Shown here: positions 4,165-51,530 of the stretch, piece by piece
Layout of the letters: every line of letters starts with the position of its first letter
Numbering within the stretch: the first letter of the stretch is position 1
NCBI RefSeq assembly: GCF_001700895.1
Contig: NZ_CP013259.1
Span: 434,001-498,000 of the forward strand
From: Buchnera aphidicola (Diuraphis noxia)
Lineage (GTDB): Bacteria > Pseudomonadota > Gammaproteobacteria > Enterobacterales > Enterobacteriaceae
DNA: 64,000 nucleotides
Direction of reading: 5' to 3'
The notes under the pieces: model-generated
Database searches by the model: none
What the model was told of the DNA's origin: nothing
What the model saw: the letters and a program-made list of their open reading frames with translations, nothing else
Program-made: the position numbers and the translations under genes

Positions 4165-4236
4165 AAAACTAATTAATAGTTTTAAAAATATTGAAGTATA
4201 AATTAATATTTGATTTTAAAATTAAAAAGAATAATC

Positions 4237-6891
4237 ATGAATAAAACAACCAGTGAAATACGTCAAGATTTTCTAAAATTTTTTCAAAATAAAGGACATA
4301 TAATTCTTCCAGGTAGTTCTTTAGTTCCAGAAGACGATTCTACTTTATTATTTACTAATGCTGGTATGAATCAATTTAAAGAAATTTTTTTAGGTCAAAA
4401 AAAAATTAATCACTCTCGTGTTGTTACAGTTCAAAACTGTTTAAGAACTGGTGGAAAACATAATGATTTAGAAAATGTAGGATATACTTCTAAACATCAT
4501 ACATTTTTTGAAATGCTTGGTAATTTTAGTTTTAATGATTACTTTAAAGAAGAAGCTATACAATATGCTTGGGAATTATTAACATCAAAAAAATGGTTTA
4601 ATATACCTGAAGATAAATTATGGGTTTCAGTCTATAAAAATGATTATGAATCATATAAAATCTGGAAAAATATAATTCAAATACCTCCCGAACGTATTAT
4701 AAGGATAGGTGATAAAAATAATTGCAAGTATAATTCCGATAATTTTTGGCAAATGGGAGATACTGGTCCATGCGGACCATCAACGGAAATATTTTATAAT
4801 TATAGTGATAAATTAATAAAAAATTCATTAGAATTTTTCAAAAATGAAGGTAATTGTTTTCTTGAAATTTGGAATATTGTTTTTATAGAATTCAATCGAA
4901 TTTCAAAAACAAAAATAGTTCATTTACCAAACAAATGCATAGATACTGGTATGGGACTAGAAAGAATATCTGCTGTTTTACAAAACGTAAATTCTAATTA
5001 TGATATTGATATATTTCAAGAATTAATTAAAAATATATCCATGTTAACTTCTATAAAAGATTTAAATCACGTTTCATTGAGAATTATAGCTGATCACATT
5101 AGATCATGTGCATACATTATTTCAGATAATATTATTCCATCTAATGAAAACAGAGGTTACGTTTTAAGACGAATTATTAGAAGAGCCTTAAGACATGGGC
5201 ACAAACTTGGCATTAAAGAAAAGTTTTTTTATAAATTAGTATCTACTTTAATTAAAGTAATGGGTGAAAACTCTGATATATTAAAGAAAAAAAAAGAAAA
5301 AATAAAAAAAATATTAAAAATGGAAGAAATACAATTTTCTTATACTCTCGATAAAGGACTAAAAATATTAGATGACGAAATAAAAAAAGCAAATTCTAAC
5401 ACACTTTCTGGTGAAACCCTTTTTTATCTTTATGATACCTTTGGGTTTCCCATTGATTTAACATCTGATGTGTGTCGTGAAAAAAATATAAAAATAGATT
5501 ATATTAGTTATAAGTTACTAAAAGAAAAACAAAAAAGAGAATCTAGTAGAAAAAATAAATTCTATAAAAATTACAATAATAGTATCATTGTAAATGATAA
5601 ATGCTTATTTGAAGGATACAACAAACATAAGACAAAATCTGTAGTAAGATATATTTTTATAAAAAATCAATTAGTTAAAAAAATTATGAAAAATGAAACT
5701 GGAATTATTTTTCTTGATAAAACAACATTTTACGGAGAATCTGGTGGACAAATAGGAGATATAGGTGAATTATACAATAAAAATTCACGTTTTATAGTCG
5801 AAAATACAAAAAGATACGGGAAATCAATAGGACATATTGGAAAACTCATTATAGGGGAAATTAAAGTTCATGATTGTATATCTAGTCAGATCAATCAAAA
5901 TTATCGACATTCTATTCAAATAAACCATTCAGCTACACATTTACTACATGCTGCACTACGTGAAACTTTTGGAGATGATGTATTTCAAAAAGGTTCTTTG
6001 GTCTCTGATACACATTTAAGATTTGATTTTTCTTGCTTTAAAACCATAAAAACATCTCATATTCAAAAAATTGAACATATTATTAATATGAAAATTCGTG
6101 ATAATATTCTTATTAAAGCACAAATGTTAAATTTAGAAGAAGCAAAAAAAAAGAAAGCAATGTGTTTGTTTGAAAATAAATATAGCTCTAAAGTCAGAAC
6201 TGTCTTTATAAAAGATTTTTCGATTGAACTTTGCGGTGGAACTCATACAAAAAGAACTGGAGATATAGGACTTTTTAAAATTTTTTCTCAATCAAGTGTA
6301 TCTTCCGGAATTAAAAGAATTGAAGCTAAAACTGGACAAAAAGCAATAGCTTATTTACATGAAAAAGATAATAATATACAAGATATATCTTTTTTACTAA
6401 ATTGTAATTCTGCTTGCATTAAAGATAAAATCACAAAATTAATAAATAAAACAAAACAATTAGAAAATAAAATCATTGATTTTCAAAATAAAGAAAATGC
6501 AAAAAATATAAAAAAATTAGTTAAAAATGCTAATGAAATAAAAGGAATAAAATTTATATCACATATCTTTCATAATTATGAACATAAATTATTACGAACA
6601 ATAGTTAATCAATTAAAAAAAGAACTAAAGAACATAGTGATAATATTGGTTAATATTATAGATAACCATTTTACTATTGTGATTGGAGTGTCAAAAAATT
6701 TAATTAATCATATAACAGCTAAAAATATTATAAATATAATTATGAAAAAAATAAAAGGAAACGGTGGAGGAAAAGAAGAAATCGCCGAAGGAGGAGGTAT
6801 CAATACAAAAAAATTACCGATTATTTTAAATAGTATGCAATCATGGATTAATGTTAAATTAAAAAATAAAGATGATTTTTTAATATATTAA
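4237..6891 (+). CDS. alaS: Alanyl-tRNA synthetase
   Basis: I place the start at the ATG at 4237 (MNKTTSEIRQDF), matching the E. coli start, rather than an in-frame TTG 27 nt upstream. The protein is 884 residues (E. coli 876). Class II motifs are visible: TLLFTNAGMNQF (motif 1), the motif 2 region around YTSKHHTFFEMLGNFSF, and GYVLRRIIRRALRHG (motif 3). The editing domain is intact, with HSATHLLHAAL and CGGTHTKRTGDIG supplying zinc and catalytic residues. The C-terminal domain keeps the GNGGGKEEIAEGGG segment. It precedes csrA, as in E. coli. Confidence 0.97.
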   Translation: MNKTTSEIRQDFLKFFQNKGHIILPGSSLVPEDDSTLLFTNAGMNQFKEIFLGQKKINHSRVVTVQNCLRTGGKHNDLENVGYTSKHHTFFEMLGNFSFNDYFKEEAIQYAWELLTSKKWFNIPEDKLWVSVYKNDYESYKIWKNIIQIPPERIIRIGDKNNCKYNSDNFWQMGDTGPCGPSTEIFYNYSDKLIKNSLEFFKNEGNCFLEIWNIVFIEFNRISKTKIVHLPNKCIDTGMGLERISAVLQNVNSNYDIDIFQELIKNISMLTSIKDLNHVSLRIIADHIRSCAYIISDNIIPSNENRGYVLRRIIRRALRHGHKLGIKEKFFYKLVSTLIKVMGENSDILKKKKEKIKKILKMEEIQFSYTLDKGLKILDDEIKKANSNTLSGETLFYLYDTFGFPIDLTSDVCREKNIKIDYISYKLLKEKQKRESSRKNKFYKNYNNSIIVNDKCLFEGYNKHKTKSVVRYIFIKNQLVKKIMKNETGIIFLDKTTFYGESGGQIGDIGELYNKNSRFIVENTKRYGKSIGHIGKLIIGEIKVHDCISSQINQNYRHSIQINHSATHLLHAALRETFGDDVFQKGSLVSDTHLRFDFSCFKTIKTSHIQKIEHIINMKIRDNILIKAQMLNLEEAKKKKAMCLFENKYSSKVRTVFIKDFSIELCGGTHTKRTGDIGLFKIFSQSSVSSGIKRIEAKTGQKAIAYLHEKDNNIQDISFLLNCNSACIKDKITKLINKTKQLENKIIDFQNKENAKNIKKLVKNANEIKGIKFISHIFHNYEHKLLRTIVNQLKKELKNIVIILVNIIDNHFTIVIGVSKNLINHITAKNIINIIMKKIKGNGGGKEEIAEGGGINTKKLPIILNSMQSWINVKLKNKDDFLIY

Positions 6892-48947: not shown

Positions 48948-51530
48948 ATGGAAAAAAAATATTCACCAAAAAAAATAGAATTTTACGTACAAAAACATTG
49001 GAAAGAAAAAAAAACTTTTGAAGTATTAGAAGACGCTAAAAAAGAAAAATATTATTGCCTCCCGATGCTTCCTTATCCTTCGGGAAAATTACATATGGGA
49101 CATGTTAGAAACTATACAATTAGTGATGTTATTGCGCGATATCAAAGAATGTTAGGAAAAAATGTTTTACAGCCAATGGGATGGGATGCTTTTGGCTTAC
49201 CTGCTGAAGAAGCTTCCATAAAAAATAATACTATACCGGAACATTGGACAAAAAAAAATATAAAATACATGAAAAAACAACTTCAATCATTAGGTTTTAG
49301 TTATGATTGGAGTAGAGAAATTACTACGTGTAAACCAGAATATTATCAATGGGAACAATGGTTTTTTACTCTGTTATATGAAAAAAAATTAGTTTATAAA
49401 AAAAATAGTTTCGTCAATTGGTGTTCATATGACAAGACTGTTTTAGCTAATGAACAAGTTATTGATGGCTGTTGTTGGCGTTGCCAAGGGAAAATTACAA
49501 TAAAAAAAATTCCTCAATGGTTTTTAAAAATTAGAAAATATGCTGAATCATTGTATCAAGATTTAAATACATTGAAAAACTGGCCTGAAAAAATAAAAAA
49601 CATGCAACGTAATTGGATAGGAAGAACAAAAGGATTTGAAATTACCTTAGATATTTTTAACTATAAGAAACAATTACAATCATTTACAAATAGATTAGAT
49701 CTCATCATGGGTGTTACATATATTTCGATATCTTTTTGTCATGAATTGTCTATATATCTAGCTAAAAAAAATAAAATAATTCAAGATTTTATAAAAAAAC
49801 ACGAAAATATTTCACCTAGAGAAATAGAAAAGTTCCAGTATGCAGGAATCAATACAAATATTTTTGCTATTCATCCTTTGACAAAAGAAAAAATACCTAT
49901 TTGGATTACAAATTTTACAATGAGGGAATATGGAATAAATTCTATGCTATCTATTCCTGCTCATAATAAGTATCATTGGAATTTTGCAATTGCACATAAT
50001 TTAAAAATAAAATATGTAATTTTGAATGCTAAAAATGCTAAACATTACCCATCTACGTCATTTTTAGATACAAAAGGAATACTATTTAATTCACAGGAAT
50101 TTAATGGTTTGAATTTCAAAGATAGTACAAAAATAATAAAAAATATATTGATTCAGAAAAAAATATTAGTAAAAAAAATTCATTATAAGTTACAAGATTG
50201 GTGTATATCGCGACAAAGATATTGGGGAGCTCCTATTCCGATAGCAAAATTAAAAAACGGAAAAATAGTTTTAATACCTAAAAACGAACTACCAGTTGTA
50301 TTACCAAAAATTAAAAACAGTGCTACTAATATTTTAAGAAATCCTATTAGTCCTGATTCTAAATGGGCTAAAATTTTTATTAATAATCAAGAAGCTATTA
50401 GAGAAACAGATACTTTTGATACATTTATGGAATCATCTTGGTATTATGCAAGATATACTTGTCCACATTTTAAACTAGGAATGATTGATTCAGTAGCATC
50501 TAAATATTGGTTACCTGTTGATCAATATATTGGAGGAGTAGAGCATGCAACAATGCATCTAATATATTTTAGATTTTATCATAAATTATTACGTGATTTT
50601 AAATTAGTTGATTTTGATGAACCTGTAGATAACTTATTATGTCAAGGAATGGTGCTTGCTGATGCTTTTTATGATATTGGAAACAATTCAGAACGTAATT
50701 GGCTGCCTTTATCATCACTTTTAATTGAGCGCAATTCAAAAGGCCAAATTATTAAATCATATACTAAAAAAGGGAAAGAAGTAACTTATGCGGGTATGAT
50801 AAAAATGTCCAAATCTAAAAACAATGGAATTGAACCAGAAATAACAATAAAACATTACGGAGCTGATACCATTCGTTTATTTATTATGTTTGCTGCTCCT
50901 ATAGAATCTTCTTTAGAATGGAACGAATCTGGTGTTCAAGGAACACATCGTTTTTTAAAAAAACTGTGGTTGTTAATCTTCAATTACATTCATGTAACAA
51001 AAAATAATATTAATATAAATACTTCTTTTCGAGAAAATCAAACCAATGAATTACAATATCAATTACACAAAACCATAGCTAAAGTATCAGATGATATCGG
51101 TCGTCGAAAATCATTTAATACAGCTATCTCTACAATAATGAAATTAGTAAATAAATTAGAAAATATTGTAACAAAAACACAACAAGATCAATTTATTATA
51201 AGAGAATGTTTAATTTGTATAATTAAAATGCTATATCCTTTTACACCTCATTTTTGTTTCATGGTTTGGAAACATCTAAATCAAAAAACATCCATTGATG
51301 AAGAGACATGGCCAATTTTTGATAAAAAAATATTGTTAAAAGAATATAATGTTATTGTCATTCAAATTAACGGAAAAAAACGCTGTATCATAAAAGTATC
51401 TAATCAGATTAGCGAAAAAGAAATTTTCTTACATGCAAAAAAACAAAATGTTATTAAAAAATATTTAAAATTTGCTACCATAAAAAAAATAATACATATT
51501 CCAAACAAAATTATAAACTTTGTAATATAA
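48948..51530 (+). CDS. leuS: Leucyl-tRNA synthetase with a degraded editing site
   Basis: I start at ATG 48948 (MEKKYSPKKIE, 860 residues; E. coli 860), not a TTG 24 nt upstream. The synthetic site is intact: MLPYPSGKLHMGHVRNY and KMSKSKNNGIEPE. The CP1 editing domain is present in length but its key residues are changed: the TTRPDT loop reads TNRLDL at 247-252 (numbering coincides with E. coli), and the GHDQRD segment that holds Asp345 in E. coli reads AHNKYH. Loss of Thr252 and Asp345 equivalents predicts weak or absent proofreading of mischarged tRNA-Leu. It is followed closely by holA; E. coli lptE between them is missing. Confidence 0.96.
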   Translation: MEKKYSPKKIEFYVQKHWKEKKTFEVLEDAKKEKYYCLPMLPYPSGKLHMGHVRNYTISDVIARYQRMLGKNVLQPMGWDAFGLPAEEASIKNNTIPEHWTKKNIKYMKKQLQSLGFSYDWSREITTCKPEYYQWEQWFFTLLYEKKLVYKKNSFVNWCSYDKTVLANEQVIDGCCWRCQGKITIKKIPQWFLKIRKYAESLYQDLNTLKNWPEKIKNMQRNWIGRTKGFEITLDIFNYKKQLQSFTNRLDLIMGVTYISISFCHELSIYLAKKNKIIQDFIKKHENISPREIEKFQYAGINTNIFAIHPLTKEKIPIWITNFTMREYGINSMLSIPAHNKYHWNFAIAHNLKIKYVILNAKNAKHYPSTSFLDTKGILFNSQEFNGLNFKDSTKIIKNILIQKKILVKKIHYKLQDWCISRQRYWGAPIPIAKLKNGKIVLIPKNELPVVLPKIKNSATNILRNPISPDSKWAKIFINNQEAIRETDTFDTFMESSWYYARYTCPHFKLGMIDSVASKYWLPVDQYIGGVEHATMHLIYFRFYHKLLRDFKLVDFDEPVDNLLCQGMVLADAFYDIGNNSERNWLPLSSLLIERNSKGQIIKSYTKKGKEVTYAGMIKMSKSKNNGIEPEITIKHYGADTIRLFIMFAAPIESSLEWNESGVQGTHRFLKKLWLLIFNYIHVTKNNININTSFRENQTNELQYQLHKTIAKVSDDIGRRKSFNTAISTIMKLVNKLENIVTKTQQDQFIIRECLICIIKMLYPFTPHFCFMVWKHLNQKTSIDEETWPIFDKKILLKEYNVIVIQINGKKRCIIKVSNQISEKEIFLHAKKQNVIKKYLKFATIKKIIHIPNKIINFVI

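Follow-up and report, generated by a model that had tools for sequence, protein, structure and literature searches.

The leucyl-tRNA synthetase (LeuRS) of Buchnera aphidicola from Diuraphis noxia appears to be an intact enzyme with a still-folding CP1 domain in which proofreading is probably gone, the editing pocket having been lost within the genus; judged from the sequence, we give this reading a probability of about 0.87. Among Buchnera genomes the pocket is lost inside the genus, being under strict selection in one clade (clade B) and free to change at most of its sites in the clade of this symbiont (clade A). From the substitutions, their distribution and this contrast in selection, we infer the loss of editing activity and an effect on the proteins of the symbiont. 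The organism is host-restricted, with a reduced genome of 636,266 bases, and the stretch of DNA analysed here, called the window, comprises 64,000 nucleotides of it (positions 434001-498000).

The leuS gene, its synthetic site and its CP1 domain

The features that bear on this reading are given below. Residues of the window LeuRS were numbered from the ATG at 48948, and E. coli K-12 LeuRS (NP_415175.1) was the reference for the alignment.

48948..51530, + strand: leuS, leucyl-tRNA synthetase, 859 amino acids after the first Met, with an intact synthetic site; no other full-length copy in the genome
49092..49103, + strand: HMGH signature of the synthetic site, intact (sequence and alignment to E. 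coli)
49611..50192, + strand: CP1 editing domain, residues 222-415 (PF13603, model and Foldseek)
49686..49703, + strand: threonine-rich loop, TNRLDL for E. coli TTRPDT, residues 247-252 (alignment)
49689..49691, + strand: codon AAT, T248 to Asn (sequence and alignment)
49701..49703, + strand: codon CTC, T252 to Leu (sequence and alignment)
49959..49976, + strand: second loop of the pocket, AHNKYH where E. coli has GHDQRD, residues 338-343 (alignment)
49974..49976, + strand: codon for His in place of D345 (alignment; role of D345 from PMC4932531)
50802..50816, + strand: KMSKS signature of the synthetic site, intact (sequence and alignment to E. coli)

A genome-wide search revealed a single full-length leuS match (1015 bits, no stops), and eight further matches, all below the cut-off, lay in the frames of other synthetases. 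The product belongs to the bacterial LeuRS family TIGR00396, which it matched over the whole gene length with 1015.2 bits (curated cut-off 548.4). HMGH and KMSKS were normal, as an earlier note on this DNA had reported. At the synthetic site, 18 of 20 columns checked were invariant in 36 genomes of the genus, and in the remaining two the window LeuRS has the E. coli residue.

The CP1 domain is also present at full length, with 180.9 bits to the LeuRS editing domain PF13603 at residues 221-400. Its identity to the E. coli domain is 35% (67/191), vs 57% (379/665) for the rest of LeuRS. The model of the full-length protein was poor (mean pLDDT 68.7), and a model of CP1 alone was used instead (mean pLDDT 88.8). 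The best Foldseek matches of this model were E. coli LeuRS structures, with TM scores of 0.87/0.91 to the editing domain in 2ajg_A, and the CP1 fold is predicted to be kept.

Substitutions in the editing pocket

Both loops lie exactly where the earlier note had placed them, aligned to TTRPDT and GHDQRD of E. coli, and the loss of T252 and D345 that it had claimed is confirmed as T252L and D345H. The alignment also revealed T248N and D342N, two further pocket losses absent from that note. The full set of changes regarding E. coli K-12 consists of T248N, P250L and T252L in the first loop, where T247, R249 and D251 are kept, and of G340A, D342N, Q343K, R344Y and D345H in the second, where H341 is kept. 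Among the residues of an editing-competent LeuRS, the window enzyme therefore has T247, R249, D251 and H341, and carries N, L, N and H at T248, T252, D342 and D345. Catalytic editing residues are thus lost next to a conserved synthetic site.

The same positions were read in named relatives outside the genus, for which the best 80 of 590 stretches were compared. T252 and D345 were both present in 80 of these 80, T248 in 79 and D342 in 77, and the set T247, T248, R249, D251, T252 and D345 was complete in 77; the three exceptions (L159, L160 and L169) were insect symbionts by name, namely Palibaumannia, a Sodalis and Steffania. Because T252 and D345 occurred in all of the best 80 named relatives, the substitutions of the window are more than chance. 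TTRDTD was found in 25 and STRDTD in one of 26 further outside loci, L063 and L070 (reduced genomes) having been left out of 28.

Distribution of the substitutions within the genus

A comparison of the two loops across Buchnera, proposed in the earlier note, was run on the 36 genus genomes. T247 was kept in 27 of them, T248 in 13, R249 in 34, D251 in 35, T252 in 13, H341 in 34, D342 in none and D345 in 29. T248, T252 and D345 were jointly kept in 12/36, a pattern that needs five changes on a tree built from five synthetases without the LeuRS CP1 (a quick search, with some weak branches).

Clade A comprises 19 genomes, all of which have lost T248. T252 is lost in 18 of the 19 (17 Leu, 1 Ile), with Thr retained in G034, and D345 in six, with His in its place every time. 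From the counts for D345 and H341 above, the alteration is only partial in several enzymes of clade A, a point against the loss of editing. By LeuRS, G007 comes closest to the window genome (77%), and its leu plasmid shares 99.3% identity with the one in Buchnera from Brevicoryne brassicae; G007 and G003, the nearest relatives, have L252 and H345 likewise. Outside clade A, the loop TNRLDL is found in G001 and G030, and G008 and G010, close relatives of G001, still have TTRLDT (identity between G010 and Buchnera from Schizaphis graminum, 88.7%). Elsewhere in the genus T252 is replaced by Ile (G019), Lys (G024) or Ala (G025).

Clade B comprises nine genomes, an Aphis symbiont among them (G028, a 100% match to Buchnera from Aphis glycines). 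No amino-acid change was found in this clade at 247, 248, 249, 251, 252, 330, 331, 333, 336 and 338, nor at 340, 341, 342 and 345; of 17 tabulated pocket positions only 250, 293 and 332 had changed, the CP1 mean in this clade being 1.29 changes per site. The corresponding numbers of changes in clade A were six at 247, eight at 248, two at 252, four at 333, three at 336, four at 338, four at 340 and two at 345.

Selection on the pocket

Codon changes were counted by parsimony on diverged sequences, so the counts are lower bounds. At eight pocket sites (247, 248, 252, 333, 336, 338, 340 and 345), chosen partly after viewing the alignment, nonsynonymous and synonymous changes numbered 36/32 in clade A vs 0/16 in clade B (Fisher 4e-5). 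The four sites known from the literature (247, 248, 252 and 345) gave 20/22 vs 0/6 (p 0.034). The rest of CP1 was alike in the two clades (714/439 in clade A and 267/176 in clade B). The 33 changes at the eight pocket sites were reached by 5 of 20,000 random CP1 sets in a permutation, a result weakened because the sites were picked after being seen.

A relaxation of the whole CP1 domain in clade A was not supported, with an A/B branch-length ratio of 3.00 vs 2.79 for the rest of LeuRS (IleRS 2.83, ValRS 3.01, ThrRS 2.27, PheT 2.53). CP1 overall is hardly faster in clade A, which counts against the loss of editing, and the change is placed in the pocket.

Two further signals at position 252 were considered and set aside. 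The unusual CTN codons at Leu252 resembled a signal at the nucleotide level, but 5 of 56 other Leu sites compared have more, and we read them as what conserved Leu sites ordinarily show. For a general preference for a bulky residue the picture is mixed in the family, where 20 of 43 genomes lack Thr252 and have Ile, Leu, Phe or Met in 11 cases vs Asn, Cys, Glu, Ala or Asp in nine. In five small genomes of the family (G040, G084, G111, G119 and G134; loci L074, L084, L090, L092 and L097) CP1 has shrunk to 145-166 residues over an E. coli span of 193, with the pocket changed in all of them; loss of the pocket may have been followed by loss of the domain. It was also observed that the LeuRS of another family symbiont (L099 in G136, a 258 kb contig) has 19 TGA codons in frame and is free of stops once TGA is translated as Trp, possibly a change of code.

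Editing sites of the other synthetases

The earlier note had held that alanyl-tRNA synthetase (AlaRS) keeps its editing motifs and that the loss is specific to LeuRS. The gene concerned lies in the window:

4210..6891, + strand: alaS, comparison enzyme, editing motifs HSATH and CGGTH kept (sequence and alignment)

The residue numbers used for the editing sites of the other synthetases follow the literature, and the E. coli letters there fit. The five AlaRS residues were kept in 30/30 loci read (36 matches were found, of which six were not read), in agreement with the first part of the claim. In 12 of the 36 genus genomes the alaS match contained one or two stops, with an open frame of nearly full length, possibly from reading beyond the gene end. 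Six checked editing residues of IleRS were kept in 36/36 genomes, and seven of ValRS in 35-36 of 36.

Specificity to LeuRS was refuted by ThrRS and PheRS, for which 35 of the 36 genomes were counted, G008 being dropped for genes broken near contig ends. ThrRS residues C182 and H186 were present in 0/35 genomes, and H73 and H77 in 2/35 each; R244, E334 and A356 of PheRS beta were present in 0/35, H265 in 1/35 and T354 in 2/35. The genome of the window has Y, H, D and Q at H73, H77 (kept), C182 and H186 of ThrRS, and L, N, S, Q and L at R244, H265, E334, T354 and A356 of PheRS beta. On this sequence comparison, three editing sites of the genome appear to be dead, those for Leu, Thr and Phe, and the sites of IleRS, ValRS and AlaRS are kept.

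The ThrRS pocket, at G000:C1:130305-131981 (L264, outside the window) and in 34 other genus genomes, is lost but mostly without drift. H77 is replaced by Gln in 33 of 35, C182 by Asp in 34, H186 by Gln in 35 and Y104 by Cys in 32, and K156 is kept in 34 and D180 in 35; these sites have 0-2 changes each vs a domain mean of 6.2, and H73 drifts with 10 changes. Several replacements are also nearly fixed in PheT, at G000:C1:134446-136833 (in L327, outside the window) and in 34 other genomes: of the 35, 34 have Leu for R244, 34 have Asn for H265 and all have Leu for A356. E334 (14 changes) and T354 (nine) drift.

Predicted consequences for translation

Given the roles of T248, T252 and D342 in the pocket, T248N would deprive the catalytic loop of one of its two hydroxyls, T252L would set a bulky side chain in the place of the substrate side chain, and with D342N and D345H the acidic anchors of the amino group would be gone. 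Mischarged tRNA-Leu, with norvaline above all, would then no longer fit and would escape hydrolysis.

In E. coli, the single change D345A makes LeuRS editing-deficient and error-prone (PMC4932531). In that study, spectral counting put norvaline at 8.47-8.81% of Leu after 10 and 30 h of microaerobic stationary phase, with no isoleucine misincorporation and 0.0072% valine. The Ile/Val/Met-like errors anticipated in the earlier note are thus doubtful as the main outcome, although proteomic studies cited in reviews do report Ile, Val and Met together with norvaline at Leu codons in a microsporidian, and Val in Mycoplasma. By analogy with D345A, norvaline is predicted to be the first error at Leu codons. 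The D345A strain was as fit as the wild type in aerobic competition and less fit in prolonged microaerobic stationary phase (PMC4932531), so loss of editing need not be costly in all conditions. Drift in small populations, together with a loss that is cheap, would be the simplest account of its cause.

Another cause is conceivable, in which editing was switched off by a preferred and selected route, with the pocket plugged and the plug maintained, and not by mere decay. In such a shut-down, T252 to Ile or Leu would act as the plug and T248N would break catalysis. T252A LeuRS hydrolyses correct Leu-tRNA-Leu, and plugging would be favoured because a half-broken pocket would destroy this correct product. 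Consistent with this route, clade A shares the loop TNRLDL with two further branches, Leu is mostly maintained at 252 next to a drifting 247 and 248, and several replacements are fixed in the ThrRS and PheRS pockets; Thr252 in G034, Lys252 in G024 and Ala252 in G025 argue against a strict rule, and on balance we consider the route unlikely.

Alternative explanations

An assembly error or a pseudogene has a negligible probability, given an open frame with a full-length family match and the same L252 and H345 in the nearest relatives. It is also improbable, though less so, that the pocket has been remodelled, so that Asn248, Leu252 and His345 together have a new specificity and continue to deacylate one or another wrong amino acid. 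Several observations would fit such a site: R249, L250 and D251 show no nonsynonymous change within clade A, and the loop therefore still has a job, structural or other, which also counts against the main reading; Leu252 is mostly held (two nonsynonymous vs 11 synonymous changes, p 0.0009 vs the CP1 mean); and there are the recurrence of TNRLDL in G001 and G030 and the His found in all six clade A genomes that lost D345. However, position 248 drifts among D, E, I, L, M, N and Q (9/4 nonsynonymous/synonymous in clade A) and position 247 among I, L and S (7/7), a pattern that fits no single chemistry. The test on L252 was moreover post hoc, and Leu-majority CP1 columns are conserved anyway, with a nonsynonymous share of 0.19-0.31.

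With proofreading taken to be lost, the reason could be that norvaline, the main target of editing, is scarce in the symbiont, so that the loss would be free of cost and the proteome still accurate; we hold this to be a real possibility, somewhat short of even odds. The gene ilvE was found in 0/36 genus genomes at E 0.001, and the ilvA family gave weak matches in 36/36 and none over a cut-off that only 2/14 control genomes reached. Judged from these searches, neither 2-ketobutyrate synthesis nor the last transamination seems to be within the symbiont's own capacity, and norvaline would be limited since ilvE was not found and all ilvA matches fell below the cut-off. In E. coli, a break in leuB ends norvaline synthesis (PMC4932531). 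Nevertheless, clade B is without the same genes and yet its pocket is strictly conserved, and the presence of leuA was unrelated to the state of the pocket in 43 reduced-size family genomes (eight kept and eight lost with leuA, 12 and 15 without; Fisher p 0.76). These were 43 of 45 family genomes up to 2.4 Mb, G000 (an assembly without a plasmid contig) and G086 (leuS in two pieces) being left out. The positives included G079, where leuA is cut to positions 1-380, and G126, where it is split into two pieces that score below the cut-off, and p was 1.0 when they were moved or excluded; a link with leuA was therefore rejected as an explanation. Ten leuA-negative genomes were assigned as the remainder of the draw, and a leuA on a plasmid may be absent from some single-contig family assemblies, as it is in the genus. 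There, leuA lies on contig 2 or 3 in 29/36 assemblies (e.g. L339-L341) and is missing only from seven single-contig ones, including that of the window, and G000 is probably an assembly without its plasmid. It is also conceivable, but in our view quite unlikely, that a synthetic site of greater stringency or a free-standing deacylase restores accuracy. Compensation of this kind is known for ProRS and mitochondrial PheRS (PMC11415595), and the discrimination factor of E. coli LeuRS against norvaline is 1169 (PMC4932531). At the largely invariant synthetic site of Buchnera LeuRS described above, the only fixed differences from E. coli are Pro at 39 and Gln at 526, common to Buchnera with editing kept and with editing lost. 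PheS A294 is unchanged in 34/34 Buchnera rows, and no stricter synthetic site was seen as compensation in the 20 LeuRS columns of 36 genomes or at PheS A294.

Comparison with known systems

Degenerate editing in ThrRS, PheRS and LeuRS is described for Mycoplasma (Li et al. 2011, as cited in PMC4014445, PMC7373986 and PMC10057733). The parallel with Mycoplasma drawn in the earlier note holds, since the same three enzymes are concerned in host-restricted bacteria with reduced genomes, and its proposal that LeuRS editing is lost is probably right, judging from T248N, T252L, D342N and D345H. Unlike Mycoplasma, the window enzyme has a CP1 of full length with point changes in the pocket, and belongs to a mutualist. 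According to PMC7373986, no Mycoplasma genome lacking three or more editing activities is known and an upper limit is suggested, vs three activities probably lacking in the genome of the window. If the selected shut-down were true, a genome with three dead sites would put this Mycoplasma-derived limit of two lost editing functions in doubt. Beyond Mycoplasma, however, a genome with three losses may be nothing new, since PMC10057733 states that editing is lost in many aminoacyl-tRNA synthetases of other host-restricted bacteria.

Among the engineered enzymes, E. coli LeuRS D345A has lost the same key residue as the window LeuRS, but through one engineered change, whereas the window enzyme is also altered at T248, T252 and D342, over evolutionary time (PMC4932531). 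E. coli LeuRS T252A (5omw, 5on2 and 5on3) is changed at the same position as in the window; unlike T252A, the Leu252 of the window would block the pocket.

Loss of editing in host-restricted bacteria has been described as a general phenomenon (Melnikov et al. 2018, as cited in PMC11020763, PMC11415595, PMC7373986 and PMC10057733), and it is probably shared by the intracellular, host-restricted symbiont studied here. Synthetase editing in Buchnera was not found as the topic of any paper in our literature search, subscription papers being outside its coverage. Buchnera is very probably covered already in the 2018 work of Melnikov and colleagues. The obligate mutualist of this study is probably without proofreading for Leu, Thr and Phe, which is then a trait not only of parasites thought to profit from variable proteins, and the same mutualist probably keeps the proofreading of isoleucine, valine and alanine. 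Because clades with and without the pocket live in host cells of one kind, a comparison across aphid species could test, without engineering, what mistranslation at Leu codons costs. The kind of phenomenon is known, and the new detail is the contrast within a genus between a clade whose pocket is kept under strict selection and a clade that has lost it, which the literature consulted on editing loss in host-restricted bacteria does not describe.
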